Assembly (NCBI GenBank): GCA_015233035.1
Contig: JADFYM010000008.1
Coordinates: 1 to 37,368 of the forward strand
Length of the DNA: 37,368 bases
Direction: 5' to 3'
Origin: Magnetococcales bacterium
Lineage (GTDB): Bacteria; Pseudomonadota; Magnetococcia; Magnetococcales; Magnetaquicoccaceae
Under the pieces are notes generated by a model. The model ran no database searches. It was not told the origin of the DNA and was given only the letters and a program-made list of their open reading frames with translations. Positions 5,883 to 16,876 of this stretch are shown here, piece after piece; position 1 is the first letter of the stretch; every line of letters begins with the position of its first letter. Made by a program: the position numbers and the translations under genes.

Positions 5883-5913
5883 GGTGTAGGTTTTGTCTCC
5901 CTCTCCCTCCGGG

Positions 5914-6146
5914 CTACCCTATGCACACAACTTTTGCAGGAATCCGGGGACCGCCACGCTCCCCGGTGGGGGTTTGGGGGAAAAGCCCACAACGGGTTGA
6001 TATTGTGTTCCTCACGGGGCTCTGCCCCGAGCCCCGCCAGGGGCGTTGCCCCTGGACCCCACCAGGGGGATAATCCCCCTGGACCCCTATCACTGCACAA
6101 TATACTTCGGATTTTTTGTCAGCATAAAAATGTGTGCATAGGGTAG
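5914..6146. repeat. 233-base element bounded by perfect 16-base inverted repeats
   Basis: CTACCCTATGCACACA at 5914-5929 is repeated in exact inverse at 6131-6146. The enclosed segment contains a right-half copy of the hairpin repeat (about 6001-6095). The arrangement resembles a small non-autonomous element inserted into, or assembled from, the composite repeat. No coding frame is credible inside it and no target-site duplication is obvious. Confidence 0.6.
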
Positions 6147-10617: not shown

Positions 10618-12642
10618 TTATTGTATCCGCATGCCGGGTGTTGCACCCGCATCCGGGGCCAGCAGGAAAATGGCCGTCTTGTCGTGGCTGTTGTCGGGAC
10701 TGGCCGCCAGGGCCATTCCTTCGGAAAGGCCAAATTTCATCTGGCGCGGAGCCAGATTGGCCACCACCACAGTCAAGCGGTCGCGCAGCGATTCCGGGGT
10801 ATAGGCCAAGCGGATACCCGCAAAGACCGTGCGTTGGCCCAATTCCCCCAGATCCAGAGTCAATTTTAACAGCTTATCGGCTCCTGGCACCGTTTCGGCT
10901 AGCAGGATGCGTGCCACCCGCAAATCCACCTGGGCAAAGGTGTCCAGGGTAATGGTCGGGGAGGAGGGGGCGGCCACCGGGAGGGTGGGCGCAACGGTTA
11001 CATCCGGTGAACGGGAGTCGGCCAGCAAGGCCTCGATTTGTTTCGGATCAACGCGCACCAGTAAATGTTTGAACGGTTGGATGGTCGTGCCACACAAAGG
11101 CAGACGACGACCCTCCCAGGTCAAATCGGGCAGATTCAGCAGATCCCGCGTCTTGTCCGCCATGACCGGCAAGACGGGCGCGAGATAGGTCTGCAATACC
11201 CGGAACAGATTGATGGCCACGGAACAGACTTCTTGTAACTCAAACGTCTTGTTTTGTTTGGCCAGACTCCACGGGGCATGGTCTTCGATATAGCGGTTGG
11301 CCAGATCCGCCAGGGCCATGATGGCCCGCATGGCCTTGGAATATTCCCGTGCCTCGTACAAGGCGGCAATCTCTTCTCCTGCCTGGACAAAGGTTTCGTG
11401 TAGTCCACCATCCGCCGGATAGACCGGGCAGAGTTGTCCCTGGAACTGTTTGGACAAAAATCCGGCGGTACGGGCGGCCAGATTGACCACCTTGCCCACC
11501 AGATCGGCATTCACCCGTTGGGCAAAATCTTCCAGATTCAGATCCAGATCATCCACCCGTGCGGTCAGCTTGCAGGCATAATAATAGCGCAAATATTCCG
11601 GATCCAAATGGTTCAGATAATTCCGGGCATTGATAAAAGTCCCCCGTGATTTGGACATTTTTTGACCATTGACGGTGAGAAAACCATGTGCAAAAACCGC
11701 CGTGGGGGTGCGGAAGCCCGCGCCATGCAGCATGGCGGGCCAGAACAGGGTGTGGAAATAGAGAATATCCTTGCCGATAAAATGATACACCTCCGCCGTG
11801 CTGCCCGGTCGCCAATAGGCATCAAAGGAGCGACCGGTGCGTTGGCAATAATTCAAGGTGGAGGCCATGTAGCCCACCGGGGCATCCAGCCAGACATAAA
11901 AATATTTGCCCGGTTGTTCTGGAATTTCAAACCCGAAATAGGGACCATCGCGGGAAATATCCCAATTTTTCAACCCACTGGAAAACCATTCCTCCAGCTT
12001 GTTGACCATCTCTGTCTGGAGTGTACCAGAACGGGTCCACTCTTTCAGGAAGGATTCAAAATGGGCCAACTGGAAAAACAGGTGTTCGGAGGAGCGTTGG
12101 ACCGGTTTTTCTCCGCACAAGGCGCAGGCGGCCTCTTTCAGGTCCAGAGGGGAGTAGGTGGCGGAACAACTTTCACAGGCATCCCCATACTGATCCACCG
12201 CCCCACAACTCGGGCAGGTACCACGAATAAACCGATCCGGCAAAAACATGGCGTCCTTGTTGCAGTAGGCCTGATGCACGGTTTCCGTATGGATGTGTCC
12301 GGCATCGCGGTTTTTGCAGTACACTTCCTCGGCCAGGAGGCGGTTTTCTTCGGAATGGGTGCTGTGATAGTTGTCAAACGCGATGGAAAATGCCTGAAAA
12401 TCGGCCAGATGTTCGCCGTGCATCCGCTGCACCAGGGTTTCCGGGGTAATGCCTTCATTGCGGGCCCGGATCATGATGGGGGTTCCGTGGGTATCGTCTG
12501 CGCAAAAGTAGCGGCAGTCACGGCCCTGCAACTTGTGGAACCGCACCCAGATGTCGGTTTGGATATATTCCACCAAATGGCCCAGATGGATGGATCCGTT
12601 GGCGTAGGGGAGGGCACTGGTGACCAGAATACGGCGTGTCAT
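10618..12642 (-). CDS. metG: Methionyl-tRNA synthetase
   Basis: A 674-residue class I aminoacyl-tRNA synthetase that charges tRNA-Met in the cytoplasm. The HIGH motif is at residues 19-22 (HLGH) within [12 protein letters not shown]. The KMSKS loop is at 328-332. A zinc knuckle region near residues 143-180 has CPSC, CESC and CALC pairs. The anticodon-binding helical domain follows, and the last 100 or so residues ([16 protein letters not shown]...[21 protein letters not shown]) form the EMAP-type tRNA-binding dimerisation domain. This is the long MetG1-type architecture of normal length. It is divergent from the mamB-like gene across 206 bases. Confidence 0.97.
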
Positions 12643-12848: not shown

Positions 12849-13730
12849 ATGAAATTTCCCCAATGTGTTCAATGCCGCGACGTGGTGATCTATTATGCGA
12901 TTGCCGTCAATGGAGCACTCATGATTTTCAAGGGGGGCTTGGGGCTGATGACGGGGAGCGCGGCTTTGGTGGCCGATGCCTTCCACTCGGGGGCCGATGT
13001 GATTGCTTCCATCGTCACCATTATCAGTATGCGGATTTCCCATACCCCGGCAGATGCCGACCATGCCTACGGACACGGCAAGATTCAGTTTCTCTCTTCT
13101 TTTCTCGTCGGCCTGATCCTGGCCGTCGGGGCCTTTTTTCTCCTGTTGAACTCTGTCATGAATGTGATGAATGGCACCTACGAAGCCCCCAGTCGTATTG
13201 CGGTGCTGGGAGCCATTTTGTCCATTCTGGCCAATGAGATCATGTTTCGCGACCAGCGTTGCGTGGCGACGGAGTTGAACAGTCCGGCCATCATGGCCAA
13301 TGCGTGGGACAATCGTTCTGACGCCATTTCCTCGACCGGGGTGTTGATTGGCCTGTTGTTTGCCACCTTTGGCTATCCCATCGCCGATCCACTGGCCAGC
13401 GTGGCCTTGTCCTTGATCGTGCTGCATATCGGTTTTGAGTTGATCCTGGAGGCCATCCAGGGGTTGATGGATACCATGCCGGATCGGGAACGGTTGGAGC
13501 AGGTCTATCGCATTGCCAAACAGTCGCCGGGGGTGTTGGGCGTTGCCTACCTGCGGGCCAGGGTCATGGGCGATGCCCTGCATGTCATCCTCAATGTGCA
13601 GGTGGATGGTCGGCTCAAGGTCTATGAGGGCGACTTGATCGTCGATGTGCTCAAAGAAAAAATCAGGCGCGGACTGGAAGACGACAAGAGCGAGATTCAA
13701 ATCTATTTGACCCCGATGGAGGTGAGGTAG
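12849..13730 (+). CDS. MamB-like cation diffusion facilitator
   Basis: A 293-residue inner-membrane metal/proton antiporter of the CDF family. The N-terminus MKFPQCVQCR has the CxxCR pattern I recall from magnetosome MamB. Further matches are GLMTGSAALVADAFHSGADV (D43, H46, D50 in helix 2), GTYEAPS between helices, and NSPAIMANAWDNRSDAISS (D154 and D158 in helix 5, where zinc CDFs such as YiiP carry His and Asp). A cytoplasmic C-terminal domain from about residue 210 ends IYLTPMEVR. The length is close to MamB (about 297). MamB loads iron into magnetosome vesicles and partners with MamM. Here no mam gene adjoins it, so it may be a paralogue outside the magnetosome cluster or a related CDF of a non-magnetotactic species. 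The ribosome site is weak (AAGAGCAC). Confidence 0.85.
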   Translation: MKFPQCVQCRDVVIYYAIAVNGALMIFKGGLGLMTGSAALVADAFHSGADVIASIVTIISMRISHTPADADHAYGHGKIQFLSSFLVGLILAVGAFFLLLNSVMNVMNGTYEAPSRIAVLGAILSILANEIMFRDQRCVATELNSPAIMANAWDNRSDAISSTGVLIGLLFATFGYPIADPLASVALSLIVLHIGFELILEAIQGLMDTMPDRERLEQVYRIAKQSPGVLGVAYLRARVMGDALHVILNVQVDGRLKVYEGDLIVDVLKEKIRRGLEDDKSEIQIYLTPMEVR

Positions 13731-13754
13731 GAGGGGAGTGGGGTGCGGTCTTTT

Positions 13755-13788
13755 TGCAAGAAAAATAATTATAATAATTTTTTTTGCA
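13755..13788 (+). terminator. AT-rich hairpin after the mamB-like gene
   Basis: TGCAAGAAAAATAATT and AATAATTTTTTTTGCA form an imperfect 16-base stem with two mismatches, with eight T in the descending arm. It lies 25 bases past the stop codon and contrasts sharply with the GC-rich surroundings. It is a possible intrinsic terminator, though the stem is weak. Confidence 0.35.
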
Positions 13789-13910
13789 TACGAGAAGCGT
13801 ACAGGTGGTACCGCTCGTGTAGGTTGGATATCCCGCATCCTCCCTTGTGGAAAACACCTTTCGTCTCTTGCCTCTGAATTATCAAGTCGGTTGCAAACCC
13901 TTACGGCAGG

Positions 13911-14159
13911 GAATTATGCCTGCTCGGCGTACCTTATCCCAAGAAACATGACCTGGACGAATAGGCCGCCCTGTTGGAAAAGGCAGGGGAAATCATCCCC
14001 GACACATTTACTGCGCTGCTTACCTACACCGATTTTGCAGTGTCTTTTCGCTATGAAGCGTTTCCCACCTTCGATGCCGACATTGACCGACCAGCCATCA
14101 CAGCTTTGGCTGGAGATCTTCTCCAACATGTTGAGCAACTCCTGAATGTCACGAACTGA
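13911..14159 (+). pseudogene. Remnant of a HEPN-domain toxin-type protein
   Basis: In one frame the DNA encodes ELCLLGVPYPKKHDLDE, an amber stop at 13962-13964, then ALLEKAGEIIPDTF, LTYTDFAVSFRYEAFP and a final helix ending at 14159. The order 'VPYPKKHDL ... LL.KA ... L..YT..AV..RYE' is the C-terminal half of HEPN domain proteins, the partners of MNT nucleotidyltransferases. The usual RxxxxH active site lies in this half in many members, and RYEAFP is the matching position. The N-terminal half is missing or scrambled (another stop at 13875), and no nucleotidyltransferase gene is present. A TTG-started 61-residue fragment from 13974 might still be expressed, but it has no ribosome site. Confidence 0.5.
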
Positions 14160-14225: not shown

Positions 14226-14567
14226 TTAACAAGCCAACTCCAACTTGCTGGCTACCAAGGCGTTAAGCGAAACACCCTCCCTTGCAGCCTCGACAGCCAA
14301 TCGACGATGGAGCGTCTTGGCGATACGGACGTTGAATTGTCCGCTATAGTTTTTGCGACTGGGAGCAACTGGTATTGCTGTCCCATTGGCGGCGCAACTC
14401 TCCTTTACCATCTCCCACGCCACGCTGAGTTCGGCAATAGCTCGATCCGGGGAAGGCCCAAACGCAGAGATTTCTGGCATCTCTACCAAACAAGCCATCC
14501 AGTCTTTGTCATCTGGTTCTTGCCAAGTATGCACCGTGAAACCGTCAAACATCTCTTTATTTTCCAT
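14226..14567 (-). CDS. hicB: HicB-family antitoxin
   Basis: A 113-residue protein. The N-terminal half (FDGFTVHTWQEPDDKDWMACL...SAFGPSPDRAIAELSVAW) follows the HicB partial RNase H fold. The C-terminal part (SGQFNVRIAKTLHRRLAVEAAREGVSLNALVASKL) is a ribbon-helix-helix DNA-binding domain, so it should both neutralise HicA and repress its own promoter. ATG 14567 shares its A with the hicA stop (TGATG), and GGAGG stands just upstream, giving the antitoxin efficient coupled translation. The order is toxin first. It belongs to a small accessory patch with the HEPN remnant and the paired dif-like sites. Confidence 0.9.
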   Translation of the reverse strand: MENKEMFDGFTVHTWQEPDDKDWMACLVEMPEISAFGPSPDRAIAELSVAWEMVKESCAANGTAIPVAPSRKNYSGQFNVRIAKTLHRRLAVEAAREGVSLNALVASKLELAC

Positions 14568-14800
14568 CAGTTTCCTCCACTTATCAATTTGATCGCCTGC
14601 CGGACCTGGTATCCTTTCGCGTTGCCGTTATCGTTTTGGATTGGAAGGAGTTGGCCGCTTGGTCCGATATACATTCTGTGGCTATCAGACTGGCGGTCCA
14701 ACCGAAACCCCAATCCAACCAGCAACGTCTCGAAATCTCGGAAAGATATTCCGTTCGGGTTGCGTTGCGCTAGGGAGAGGAGTTTTTCAATCTTGTCCAT
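14567..14800 (-). CDS. hicA: HicA-family mRNA interferase toxin
   Basis: A 77-residue double-stranded RNA-binding-like fold protein. It starts MDKIEKLLSLAQRNPNGISF, as HicA toxins do, followed by the core LVGLGFRLDRQSDSHRMYIG with the catalytic His at H41 in the (S)SHxxY motif and a C-terminal KGYQVRQAIKLI helix. HicA cleaves mRNA and halts growth when HicB is lost. There is no Shine-Dalgarno site. The ATG lies seven bases after a good -10 box, so the transcript is likely leaderless or nearly so, which would keep toxin synthesis low relative to hicB. All key features are intact. Confidence 0.9.
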   Translation of the reverse strand: MDKIEKLLSLAQRNPNGISFRDFETLLVGLGFRLDRQSDSHRMYIGPSGQLLPIQNDNGNAKGYQVRQAIKLISGGN

Positions 14801-14836: not shown

Positions 14837-14862
14837 GAGAAATTTTTGCTCAAACGTCATCA

Positions 14863-14890
14863 ATTTTACATAATACATCTTATGCGACAA
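14863..14890 (-). other. dif-like Xer recombination site, inverted copy
   Basis: Read on the minus strand: XerC-type arm TTGTCGCATAA, central GATGTA, XerD-type arm TTATGTAAAAT. Against recalled Escherichia coli dif (arms GGTGCGCATAA and TTATGTTAAAT), the XerD arm matches 10 of 11 and the XerC arm shares CGCATAA. It points opposite to the second site at 14932-14959, 41 bases away. Confidence 0.65.
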
Positions 14891-14931
14891 TACCAGTCTG
14901 TGCCGGATCGTATGTCAACCGGTGCTGAACC

Positions 14932-14959
14932 ATGTCGCATAAGATGTATTATGTTAAAT
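14932..14959 (+). other. dif-like Xer recombination site
   Basis: XerC-type arm ATGTCGCATAA, central six bases GATGTA, XerD-type arm TTATGTTAAAT. The XerD arm equals that of Escherichia coli dif at all 11 positions; the XerC arm matches at 7. With the site at 14863-14890 it forms a near-perfect 29-base inverted repeat (14861-14889 and 14933-14961, one mismatch). It may be the chromosomal dif or an attP-like/pdif pair from a Xer-dependent element. Confidence 0.7.
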
Positions 14960-15139
14960 TGATACCGTGATGTTTCCCCACGCTTTCCCGTATTTCCCCC
15001 ATGCGCCATTGACAGGCCTGTACGCAATTGGTTAGCGTGTAATTTTTATGGAACTCAGGCATCAGTCCTGTATATACTTCGCCATCTGTCGGATTGGCCG
15101 CACCCGGTTGGGTCGGCACTCGGATCAAGGGAGCCCTGC

Positions 15140-16876
15140 ATGGGTACATACGCTTCACCGGTTTCTTGTCCTGATCATGGTACGGAACACGGATCGTCCA
15201 CATCGGATGAACTCGAGAAACTGCGCACACACTTGCTGGCACGGGTCAGTCGGTTGAATGAGATTGGCGTGGCCCTCTCCTCGATGAAAAATCCGGATCT
15301 GCTGCTGGAAACCATTCTGTTGGGAGCCAAGGCGTTGACCAATGCAGACGCTGGCACCTTGTACACCCTGACCGAAAATCAGACGCTTAAATTTCAGATT
15401 CTCCGCACAGATTCATTAAATATTGCCCAGGGCGGCACAACGGGCGTTGCCATCAAATTGCCCGAATTGCCTCTGTATCGGGATGGCCGACCCAACTTGT
15501 CCATGGTGGCGGCCTATACCGCTTTGAAAGAGGAAACCGTCAATATTCCCGATGCCTATGAGGCCGAAGGGTTTGACTTTTCCGGGATGCGCGCCTTTGA
15601 CGCCGCCATGAAATATCGGTCCCAATCCTTTCTGACCGTTCCACTCAAAAATCACGAAAACGAATTGATCGGAGTGTTGCAACTGATCAATGCCAAAGAC
15701 CCGGATACCAACGAAATTCTGCCCTTCTCCGCCGAGGACCAACAACTGGCTGAATCGCTGGCCTCACAAGCCGCCATCGCCCTGACCAATCAACGTCTGA
15801 TCAGCGATTTGAAAAAGCTGTTTGAGGCGTTCATCCAAACCATTGCGACGGCCATCGACGAAAAATCCCCTTATACGGGTGGACACGGCCATCGTGTCCC
15901 CATCCTGTCGGACATGCTCGCCAAGGCGGCCAAAGAGTCCGAACTGGGTGATTTGAAGGATTTTCATCCCACGGAAGATGAACTGTATGAAATTCGCATC
16001 GCGGCCTGGATGCACGATTGCGGCAAGGTTGTCACGCCCGAGTATGTGGTAGACAAGTCCACCAAACTGGAAACCATCTACGATCGCGTACATACCGTAT
16101 CCACCCGGTTTGAAGTGTTAAAGAGAGATGCCGAAATTGAATTTCTCAACAAAAAACTGGCCCTCCTCTCCCCCTGTGGCGGTTCTGCACACGATGCCAT
16201 CACCCAACTGGAGGAACAAAACAGGCAATTGACGGCCCTGGAAAAGGCCCTCCAGGAGAGGCTGGCGCAATTGGAAGCAGACAGAAAATTTATCATGGAA
16301 TGCAACGTGGGGGGTGAATTCATGTCCCCAGAGTTGCAGGAGCGCGTCAAGACGATTGCCCAATACCGCTGGTTGAATCCGAAAGGCCAGGAAGAGCCCT
16401 TTCTCTCGGAAAACGAAGTGTACAATCTGTGCATTCCCAAAGGAACCCTCACCAAAGAAGAACGGGCCGTCATCAACAACCACGTCACAGTCACCAAAAA
16501 AATGCTCGTCAAATTGCCCTTTCCCAAGATTTTGCGGCGCGTGCCGGAAATCGCGGGCAGCCACCATGAGACCATGGACGGGTCTGGATATCCAGAAGGT
16601 TTGGTCCGGGCACAAATGTCCATTCCCGCCAGAATTATGGCCGTTGCCGATGTGTTCGAGGCCTTGACCGCCAGTGACCGACCGTACAAGCCAGCCAAGT
16701 CCCTCTCCGCCTCCTTGAAAATTTTGGGTTTCATGAAAAAGGATCAACACATCGATCCCGATCTGTTTGATGTCTTCATCCGCAGCAAGATCTATCAGCA
16801 ATATGCTGAACAATATCTGGATCCTTCCCAGATTGATGTGGTGGACGAGAGCAAAATTCCCGGCTATACCCCCTGA
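15140..16876 (+). CDS. GAF/HD-GYP cyclic-di-GMP phosphodiesterase
   Basis: A 578-residue cytoplasmic protein starting at ATG 15140 (AAGGGA seven bases upstream). A short coil (ELEKLRTHLLARVSRLNEIG) leads into a GAF sensor domain, about residues 45-215, then an HD-GYP domain with ATAIDEKSPYTGGHGHRV, H292-D293 (MHDCGK) and G483-Y484-P485 (HHETMDGSGYPEG). HD-GYP enzymes hydrolyse c-di-GMP to pGpG or GMP. The HD and GYP motifs lie 190 residues apart, against about 65 in typical members: a 120-residue insert rich in charged coiled coil (EEQNRQLTALEKALQERLAQ) separates them. Catalytic residues look intact. It faces the GspE-type ATPase gene across repeat R4. Confidence 0.92.
   Translation: MGTYASPVSCPDHGTEHGSSTSDELEKLRTHLLARVSRLNEIGVALSSMKNPDLLLETILLGAKALTNADAGTLYTLTENQTLKFQILRTDSLNIAQGGTTGVAIKLPELPLYRDGRPNLSMVAAYTALKEETVNIPDAYEAEGFDFSGMRAFDAAMKYRSQSFLTVPLKNHENELIGVLQLINAKDPDTNEILPFSAEDQQLAESLASQAAIALTNQRLISDLKKLFEAFIQTIATAIDEKSPYTGGHGHRVPILSDMLAKAAKESELGDLKDFHPTEDELYEIRIAAWMHDCGKVVTPEYVVDKSTKLETIYDRVHTVSTRFEVLKRDAEIEFLNKKLALLSPCGGSAHDAITQLEEQNRQLTALEKALQERLAQLEADRKFIMECNVGGEFMSPELQERVKTIAQYRWLNPKGQEEPFLSENEVYNLCIPKGTLTKEERAVINNHVTVTKKMLVKLPFPKILRRVPEIAGSHHETMDGSGYPEGLVRAQMSIPARIMAVADVFEALTASDRPYKPAKSLSASLKILGFMKKDQHIDPDLFDVFIRSKIYQQYAEQYLDPSQIDVVDESKIPGYTP

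Follow-up and report, generated by a model that had tools for sequence, protein, structure and literature searches.

A second, inverted Xer site beside the chromosomal dif of a Magnetococcales bacterium recurs in four families of the order

A 37,368-nucleotide stretch of a draft Magnetococcales genome (contig JADFYM010000008.1 of GenBank assembly GCA_015233035.1, hereafter the window) contains two dif-like Xer sites in inverted orientation, identified here by sequence comparison as the chromosome's own, vertically inherited dif locus. The dif site is commonly regarded as a single, self-sufficient 28-bp site; the new element, judged from the genomes compared, is a second, inverted site on the XerC side of dif, which recurs in four families. 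In the open-access literature, to which the search was confined, no description of an inverted or double dif was found. We propose that the locus is a composite dif, in which the accessory inverted Xer site would let FtsK meet XerD from either side; the architecture is observed directly, and for the mechanism we see about an even chance.

The left site lies at 14863–14890 on the minus strand (XerD arm 14863–14873, centre 14874–14879, XerC arm 14880–14890) and the right site at 14932–14959 on the plus strand (XerC arm 14932–14942, centre 14943–14948, XerD arm 14949–14959), with the XerD arms pointing outward, to the left and to the right, respectively. The spacer between the 28-mers (14891–14931) is not conserved in sequence between species and comprises 41 bp, as the earlier note on this DNA had described. 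Both sites follow the 28-bp layout of XerC arm, 6-bp centre, and XerD arm, reading from XerC to XerD TTGTCGCATAA.GATGTA.TTATGTAAAAT (left, minus strand) and ATGTCGCATAA.GATGTA.TTATGTTAAAT (right, plus strand), and have in common the centre GATGTA and the XerC arm TGTCGCATAA; the XerD arm of the right site equals that of Escherichia coli dif. As 27-mers (14863–14889, minus, and 14933–14959, plus), they are 70 bp apart from start to start, and the two dif-like matches in the window compare with 0 expected from its dinucleotide shuffles. The whole inverted repeat (14854–14968) takes in 8–9 bp beyond each XerD arm. Its arms (14854–14889 and 14933–14968) are 36 nt long, 92% complementary, and separated by 43 nt; the core has 1 mismatch in ~31 nt, which agrees with the single mismatch previously reported for it and is slightly longer than the 29 bases given there. 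In single-stranded form, 14854–14968 folds as a hairpin of −34.6 kcal/mol (z −10).

Across the 4.5 Mb and 434 contigs of the draft genome, these two were the only sites without mismatches, and a search for further copies found no other dif. There is thus one locus in the draft genome, although it has two sites, and a MITE, which would be expected in many copies, is ruled out by this single occurrence. The pair is not an assembly artefact, since the whole pair was seen independently in 16 other assemblies; the contigs of two sister genomes (G004 and G002) break inside or at the pair, so that drafts can hide it. The next-best dif-like site, with 3 mismatches, is on another contig (G000:C416:14706–14732, L003) and has a partial match to a Xer-like recombinase ~180 bp away (C416:14143–14523); a similar 3-mismatch dif-like site is present in G005:C265.

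The assignment to chromosomal dif, which the earlier note had offered as an alternative, is supported by gene synteny, by identity with the terminus site of a complete relative, and by convergent KOPS-like motifs. Of 47 relatives from the order, 44 have a dif of this type (≤3 mismatches), and a shorter-pattern search located dif in 46 of 48 genomes, this one counted. In the synteny comparison, which covered 46 dif loci, 37 had metG beside dif and 34 a gene for a GAF and HD-GYP-type protein, contig ends accounting for part of the missing neighbours. In the window, the GAF/HD-GYP gene (15140–16876, plus strand) is the conserved right-hand neighbour, and metG (10618–12642, minus strand), the conserved left-hand neighbour, is pushed 2.2 kb off by inserted genes. 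In the single-contig genome of 4,719,581 bp that we take to be Magnetococcus marinus MC-1 (G027), the dif at 2,303,955 is identical, letter for letter, to the 27-mer of the right window site. The sign change of its GC skew falls within 16 kb of dif (cumulative maximum 16 kb off); in MC-1, dif is therefore at the skew switch with which the earlier note had suggested a comparison. The KOPS-like motif GGGNAGGG shows strand counts of 39:8 left and 6:41 right of the MC-1 dif, and the interval of the polarity peak (2,301,848–2,304,924) contains dif. A dif homologue of Magnetococcus has also been listed before (PMC2731167).

The interval of the KOPS-like polarity peak likewise brackets the pair in the paired sister genomes G001 and G006, and counts pooled over paired or half-paired loci were 63:5 on the left and 10:46 on the right (p=1.8e-18). 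Within the window itself, the motifs (3:0 left and 4:2 right of the pair) are too sparse, as is the GC skew, and the terminus assignment of the window pair rests on relatives. The locus thus resembles the proteobacterial dif/XerCD/FtsK system in its 28-bp, three-part, intergenic site, its terminus position in MC-1, its converging KOPS-like motifs, and the encoded XerD and FtsK-gamma; it differs in having two inverted sites with outward XerD arms instead of one. Second dif-like sites with other centres were observed on contigs without metG in two genomes (G022:C88:31014–31040, L066, and G014:C190:3774–3800, L086), perhaps belonging to secondary replicons or integrated elements.

The comparison of the locus in close relatives, which had been suggested as a check, returned one geometry throughout. 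A second dif-like site was found in 17 relatives from four families (16 intact and one split by a contig break), always inverted, on the XerC side of dif, and with the XerD arms outward. The alternative offered earlier, the chromosome's own dif plus a captured inverted copy, is supported as to the dif; for the copy, whose conservation extends across species and families, "captured" is too weak a word. Three more genomes (G020, G032, and G034) have only an inverted XerD half-site, at distances of 41, 64, and 107, respectively; in these and in G035, the XerC arm of the partner site is lost or degenerate and the XerD arm is kept. Exact XerD arms numbered 20 within 300 bp of dif versus 3 in the 727 kb of the remaining loci, and whole genomes contain few of them. 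Each of the 20 points away from dif: the XerC side has 16, all inverted, and the XerD side has 4, all direct, which belong to three genomes (G021, G030, and G036). In the metG trees, f1g1, f13, and f8 are separate clades and the unpaired sister genus f1g2 is another; the paired clades f13 and f8 received 100/100 each, and f1g1 also received 100/100 but was drawn open. A single dif is present in f1g2 and several families, which means that the second site is dispensable, a point against the composite dif. Read on these trees, pairs have been gained and lost during the evolution of the order.

The start-to-start spacings of this genome and the 16 intact relatives with complete or nearly complete second sites were 70, 71, 61, 59, and 60 in f1g1, 61 in f2, 109 (three times) and 81 in f8, and 79, 90, 69, 60, 60, 60, and 59 in f13. 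The split pair of G004 has a spacing of 61, and G002 has a contig starting at the site. These values cluster near multiples of 10 bp (59–61, 69–71, 79–81, 90, and 109). The Rayleigh R was 0.88 at a period of 10.0, whether 18 pairs were used or a single value from each clade and length class, and 0.67–0.72 at a period of 10.5; periods of 9.8–10.0 fit better. The phasing was noticed post hoc, and within-clade differences alone gave p=0.07. The spacings are suggestive of a placement of both sites on one face of the helix.

Between species, the identity of the partner in XerC arm, centre, and XerD arm was 0.86, 1.00, and 0.95 in f1g1 (flanks 0.25–0.31), 0.79, 0.50, and 0.97 in f13 (flanks 0.24–0.28), and 0.77, 1.00, and 0.94 in f8 (flanks 0.38–0.45), respectively. 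Overall, the partner arms are 77–97% identical, the DNA nearby is at chance or little above (0.24–0.45), and, of the two partner arms, the XerD arm is the better conserved. The partner centre differs from the main centre in f13 (six genomes, 6 of 7 partners) and f8 (four genomes). Because six of the seven f13 centres differ, the conservation of the partner there is not explained by copying from the main site; arms that are kept while the centre drifts suggest selection for Xer binding and not for recombination. Homogenisation also happens, since main and partner centres are equal in f1g1, f2, and G046, and G046 has an extended perfect inverted copy, with tccagagacgag outside both XerD arms; part of the partner identity in f1g1 could be due to such concerted evolution. 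The main and partner roles seem to have been swapped in evolution. Among the f13 species, the main (GATGTA) site faces metG in G035, G039, and G042 and the GAF gene in G029, G044, and G047, and the single dif of f11, MC-1 included, is flipped relative to most of the order; the pair may therefore be a route for dif to change orientation.

FtsK is guided to dif by KOPS, and its gamma domain activates XerD. Directed FtsK translocation reaches dif from either side (PMC2680272). With one dif only, FtsK coming from one arm would meet XerC first, whereas an outward pair would present XerD first from both arms. The proposed composite dif would consist of a XerCD recombination site and, on its XerC side, an inverted Xer-binding site, with XerD arms toward both replichores and both sites occupied by XerC and XerD. 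FtsK, steered by the convergent KOPS-like motifs, would come from either arm, meet a XerD-first site either way, and by its contact with XerD switch on XerCD recombination. The spacing would permit contact between the accessory complex and the dif complex, and inverted orientation and a short spacer would both disfavour recombination in cis, as would the unequal centres of one genus; where the centres are equal, as in the window, either site could serve as dif. The genome encodes XerD (over cut-off) and two FtsK-gamma regions, and a lower-scoring second full-length match may be XerC. The two-sided FtsK model accounts for the outward geometry and for the conservation of the XerD arm despite a decayed XerC arm or centre, but it has no need of the direct XerD arms of G021, G030, and G036, which count against it.

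A broader reading holds that a two-faced dif, with a helix-phased accessory Xer site that presents XerD first from either arm, would form an undescribed control layer of dimer resolution in the order and, by separate origin, in others such as Flavobacteriaceae; this is tentative, and we lean against it. If the composite dif is real, some chromosomes use composite dif sites, which would offer a natural test of whether FtsK's side of approach to XerCD matters, and the locus would be a chromosomal counterpart, perhaps the source, of the paired sites in Xer-dependent phages. Other phyla can now be surveyed directly for extra XerD arms near dif.

In the plasmid Xer sites cer and psi, accessory sequence sits on the XerC side of the core. 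This extra sequence beside the core is thought to shape the complex (PMC5357621). The window locus also has extra sequence besides the core, and its XerC-side position fits; in contrast to cer and psi, the accessory element is itself a Xer-type site ~60–110 bp away, apparently in place of ArgR/PepA sites, and it lies on a chromosome and not on a plasmid.

The gross geometry is also that of attP1 and attP2 of CTXphi, two dif-like sites in opposite orientation, ~90 bp apart, that form a hairpin (PMC3089051). The pair might accordingly be a remnant of, or a landing pad for, ssDNA phages that exploit Xer, as an attP-type hairpin left after prophage loss, with which its strong folding as single-stranded DNA would agree. 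An inovirus with a Zot-like gene (L251) has an outward XerD pair in its own genome, and outward pairs occur in Flavobacteriaceae, Xer-integrated ssDNA phages having been reported in Flavobacterium (PMC9719478). A relic should, however, decay like its flanks, yet the partner arms are conserved; the locus is chromosomal and vertically inherited, and metG and the GAF gene usually stand no more than some hundreds of bases from dif. Neither the neighbouring genes inspected nor the G001 and G036 insertions included a recognisable phage gene. Moreover, the CTXphi attP keeps its XerC arms, with degenerate XerD arms and a long centre in attP1 (PMC3089051), whereas here the XerD arm is best kept and the centres are 6 bp. 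A phage origin is thus possible but unlikely. The pair of L251 (IMG/VR, 5886–5967) has a start-to-start spacing of 55 and resembles a CTXphi-type attP; L251 is presumably Nitrosomonas europaea.

We also doubt, rather strongly, that the two sites are equivalent, an inverted duplication kept as a spare with both copies active in dimer resolution and no accessory function. The equal centres of f1g1, f2, and G046, the extended perfect copy in G046, and the swapping of the main-site role would all be natural under such redundancy, but it fits poorly with the different partner centres of f13 and f8 and with the four genomes in which the XerC arm is lost or degenerate and the XerD arm stays, and redundancy alone predicts neither the XerD-outward geometry nor the phased spacing.

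The prominence of the XerD arm in the conserved element recalls Bacillus subtilis, where XerD unloads SMC at the terminus (as cited in PMC12322038), and there too XerD-arm sequences stand outside the recombination core. A role in unloading SMC complexes in the terminus region would nevertheless be very improbable here, given that canonical Smc (TIGR02168) was not found over cut-off in this genome (G000) and nine relatives (G001, G003, G006, G018, G024, G027, G029, G039, and G044), and that extra XerD arms are local to dif, few elsewhere in the genomes, and not spread through the terminus. The lack of a canonical Smc extends even to the complete 4.72-Mb MC-1 genome, which is an unusual condensin situation.

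The hicB (14226–14567) and hicA (14567–14800) genes, on the minus strand, adjoin dif in no other genome of the sample. The cation diffusion facilitator gene (12849–13730, plus strand) is also beside dif in the sister species G002, where it is 82% identical and directly adjoins dif; in the window, an ORF at 13738–14145 and hicBA intervene. This ORF has no Pfam match, and the HEPN remnant earlier placed near the pair was not confirmed. By this comparison, hicAB is a later local addition beside dif, outside the dif system or any Xer module. Inverted dif-like sites near a toxin–antitoxin pair are also a feature of Acinetobacter pdif modules, but the window has only two sites, 41 bp apart, with no gene between them and no third site or second pair flanking hicAB, which rules out a pdif module. 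The proposal of a mobile element or recombination hotspot is not supported, given the same lack of a third site, the absence of hicAB at the relatives' dif, and the absence of phage genes among those examined. It is scarcely credible that the pair is an operator or promoter of hicAB, metG, or the GAF/HD-GYP gene that resembles dif by chance: a weak promoter-like match overlaps the left site and hicA starts ~60 bp from the pair, but relatives have the pair without hicAB at the locus, which rules out a mere hicAB operator, two different genes flank it, and it matches dif arm by arm at the point of KOPS convergence.

Beyond the order, a scan of genome contigs for outward XerD pairs returned at least 119 stretches, and many of the 80 loci listed from it were Flavobacteriaceae. 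At 108 dif loci of Flavobacteriaceae, a search within 250 bp gave 78 exact extra XerD arms, all of them on the XerC side (0 on the XerD side), it being noted that AT-rich genomes also yield chance XerD-arm matches. Sixty of the 78 were inverted and 18 direct, and the direct ones count against the two-sided FtsK model. Their spacings cluster near 66 and 76 bp, weakly (R ~0.5 on distinct values); with this and the mixed orientations, the family was dropped as out-of-sample support for the phasing. The flavobacterial loci that were read had chromosomal genes around them and no obvious phage genes. Their extra XerD arms are possibly a general accessory element, and the placing of accessory XerD arms next to the XerC arm of dif appears to be a wider, probably convergent phenomenon. 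In the Flavobacteriaceae loci L210–L239 and L391–L470, the extra XerD arms follow one of two arrangements: inverted arms at about −66 and at about −182 to −194, or a direct arm at about −46 that is often accompanied by an inverted one at about −156; they are on the XerC side only and form imperfect hairpins.
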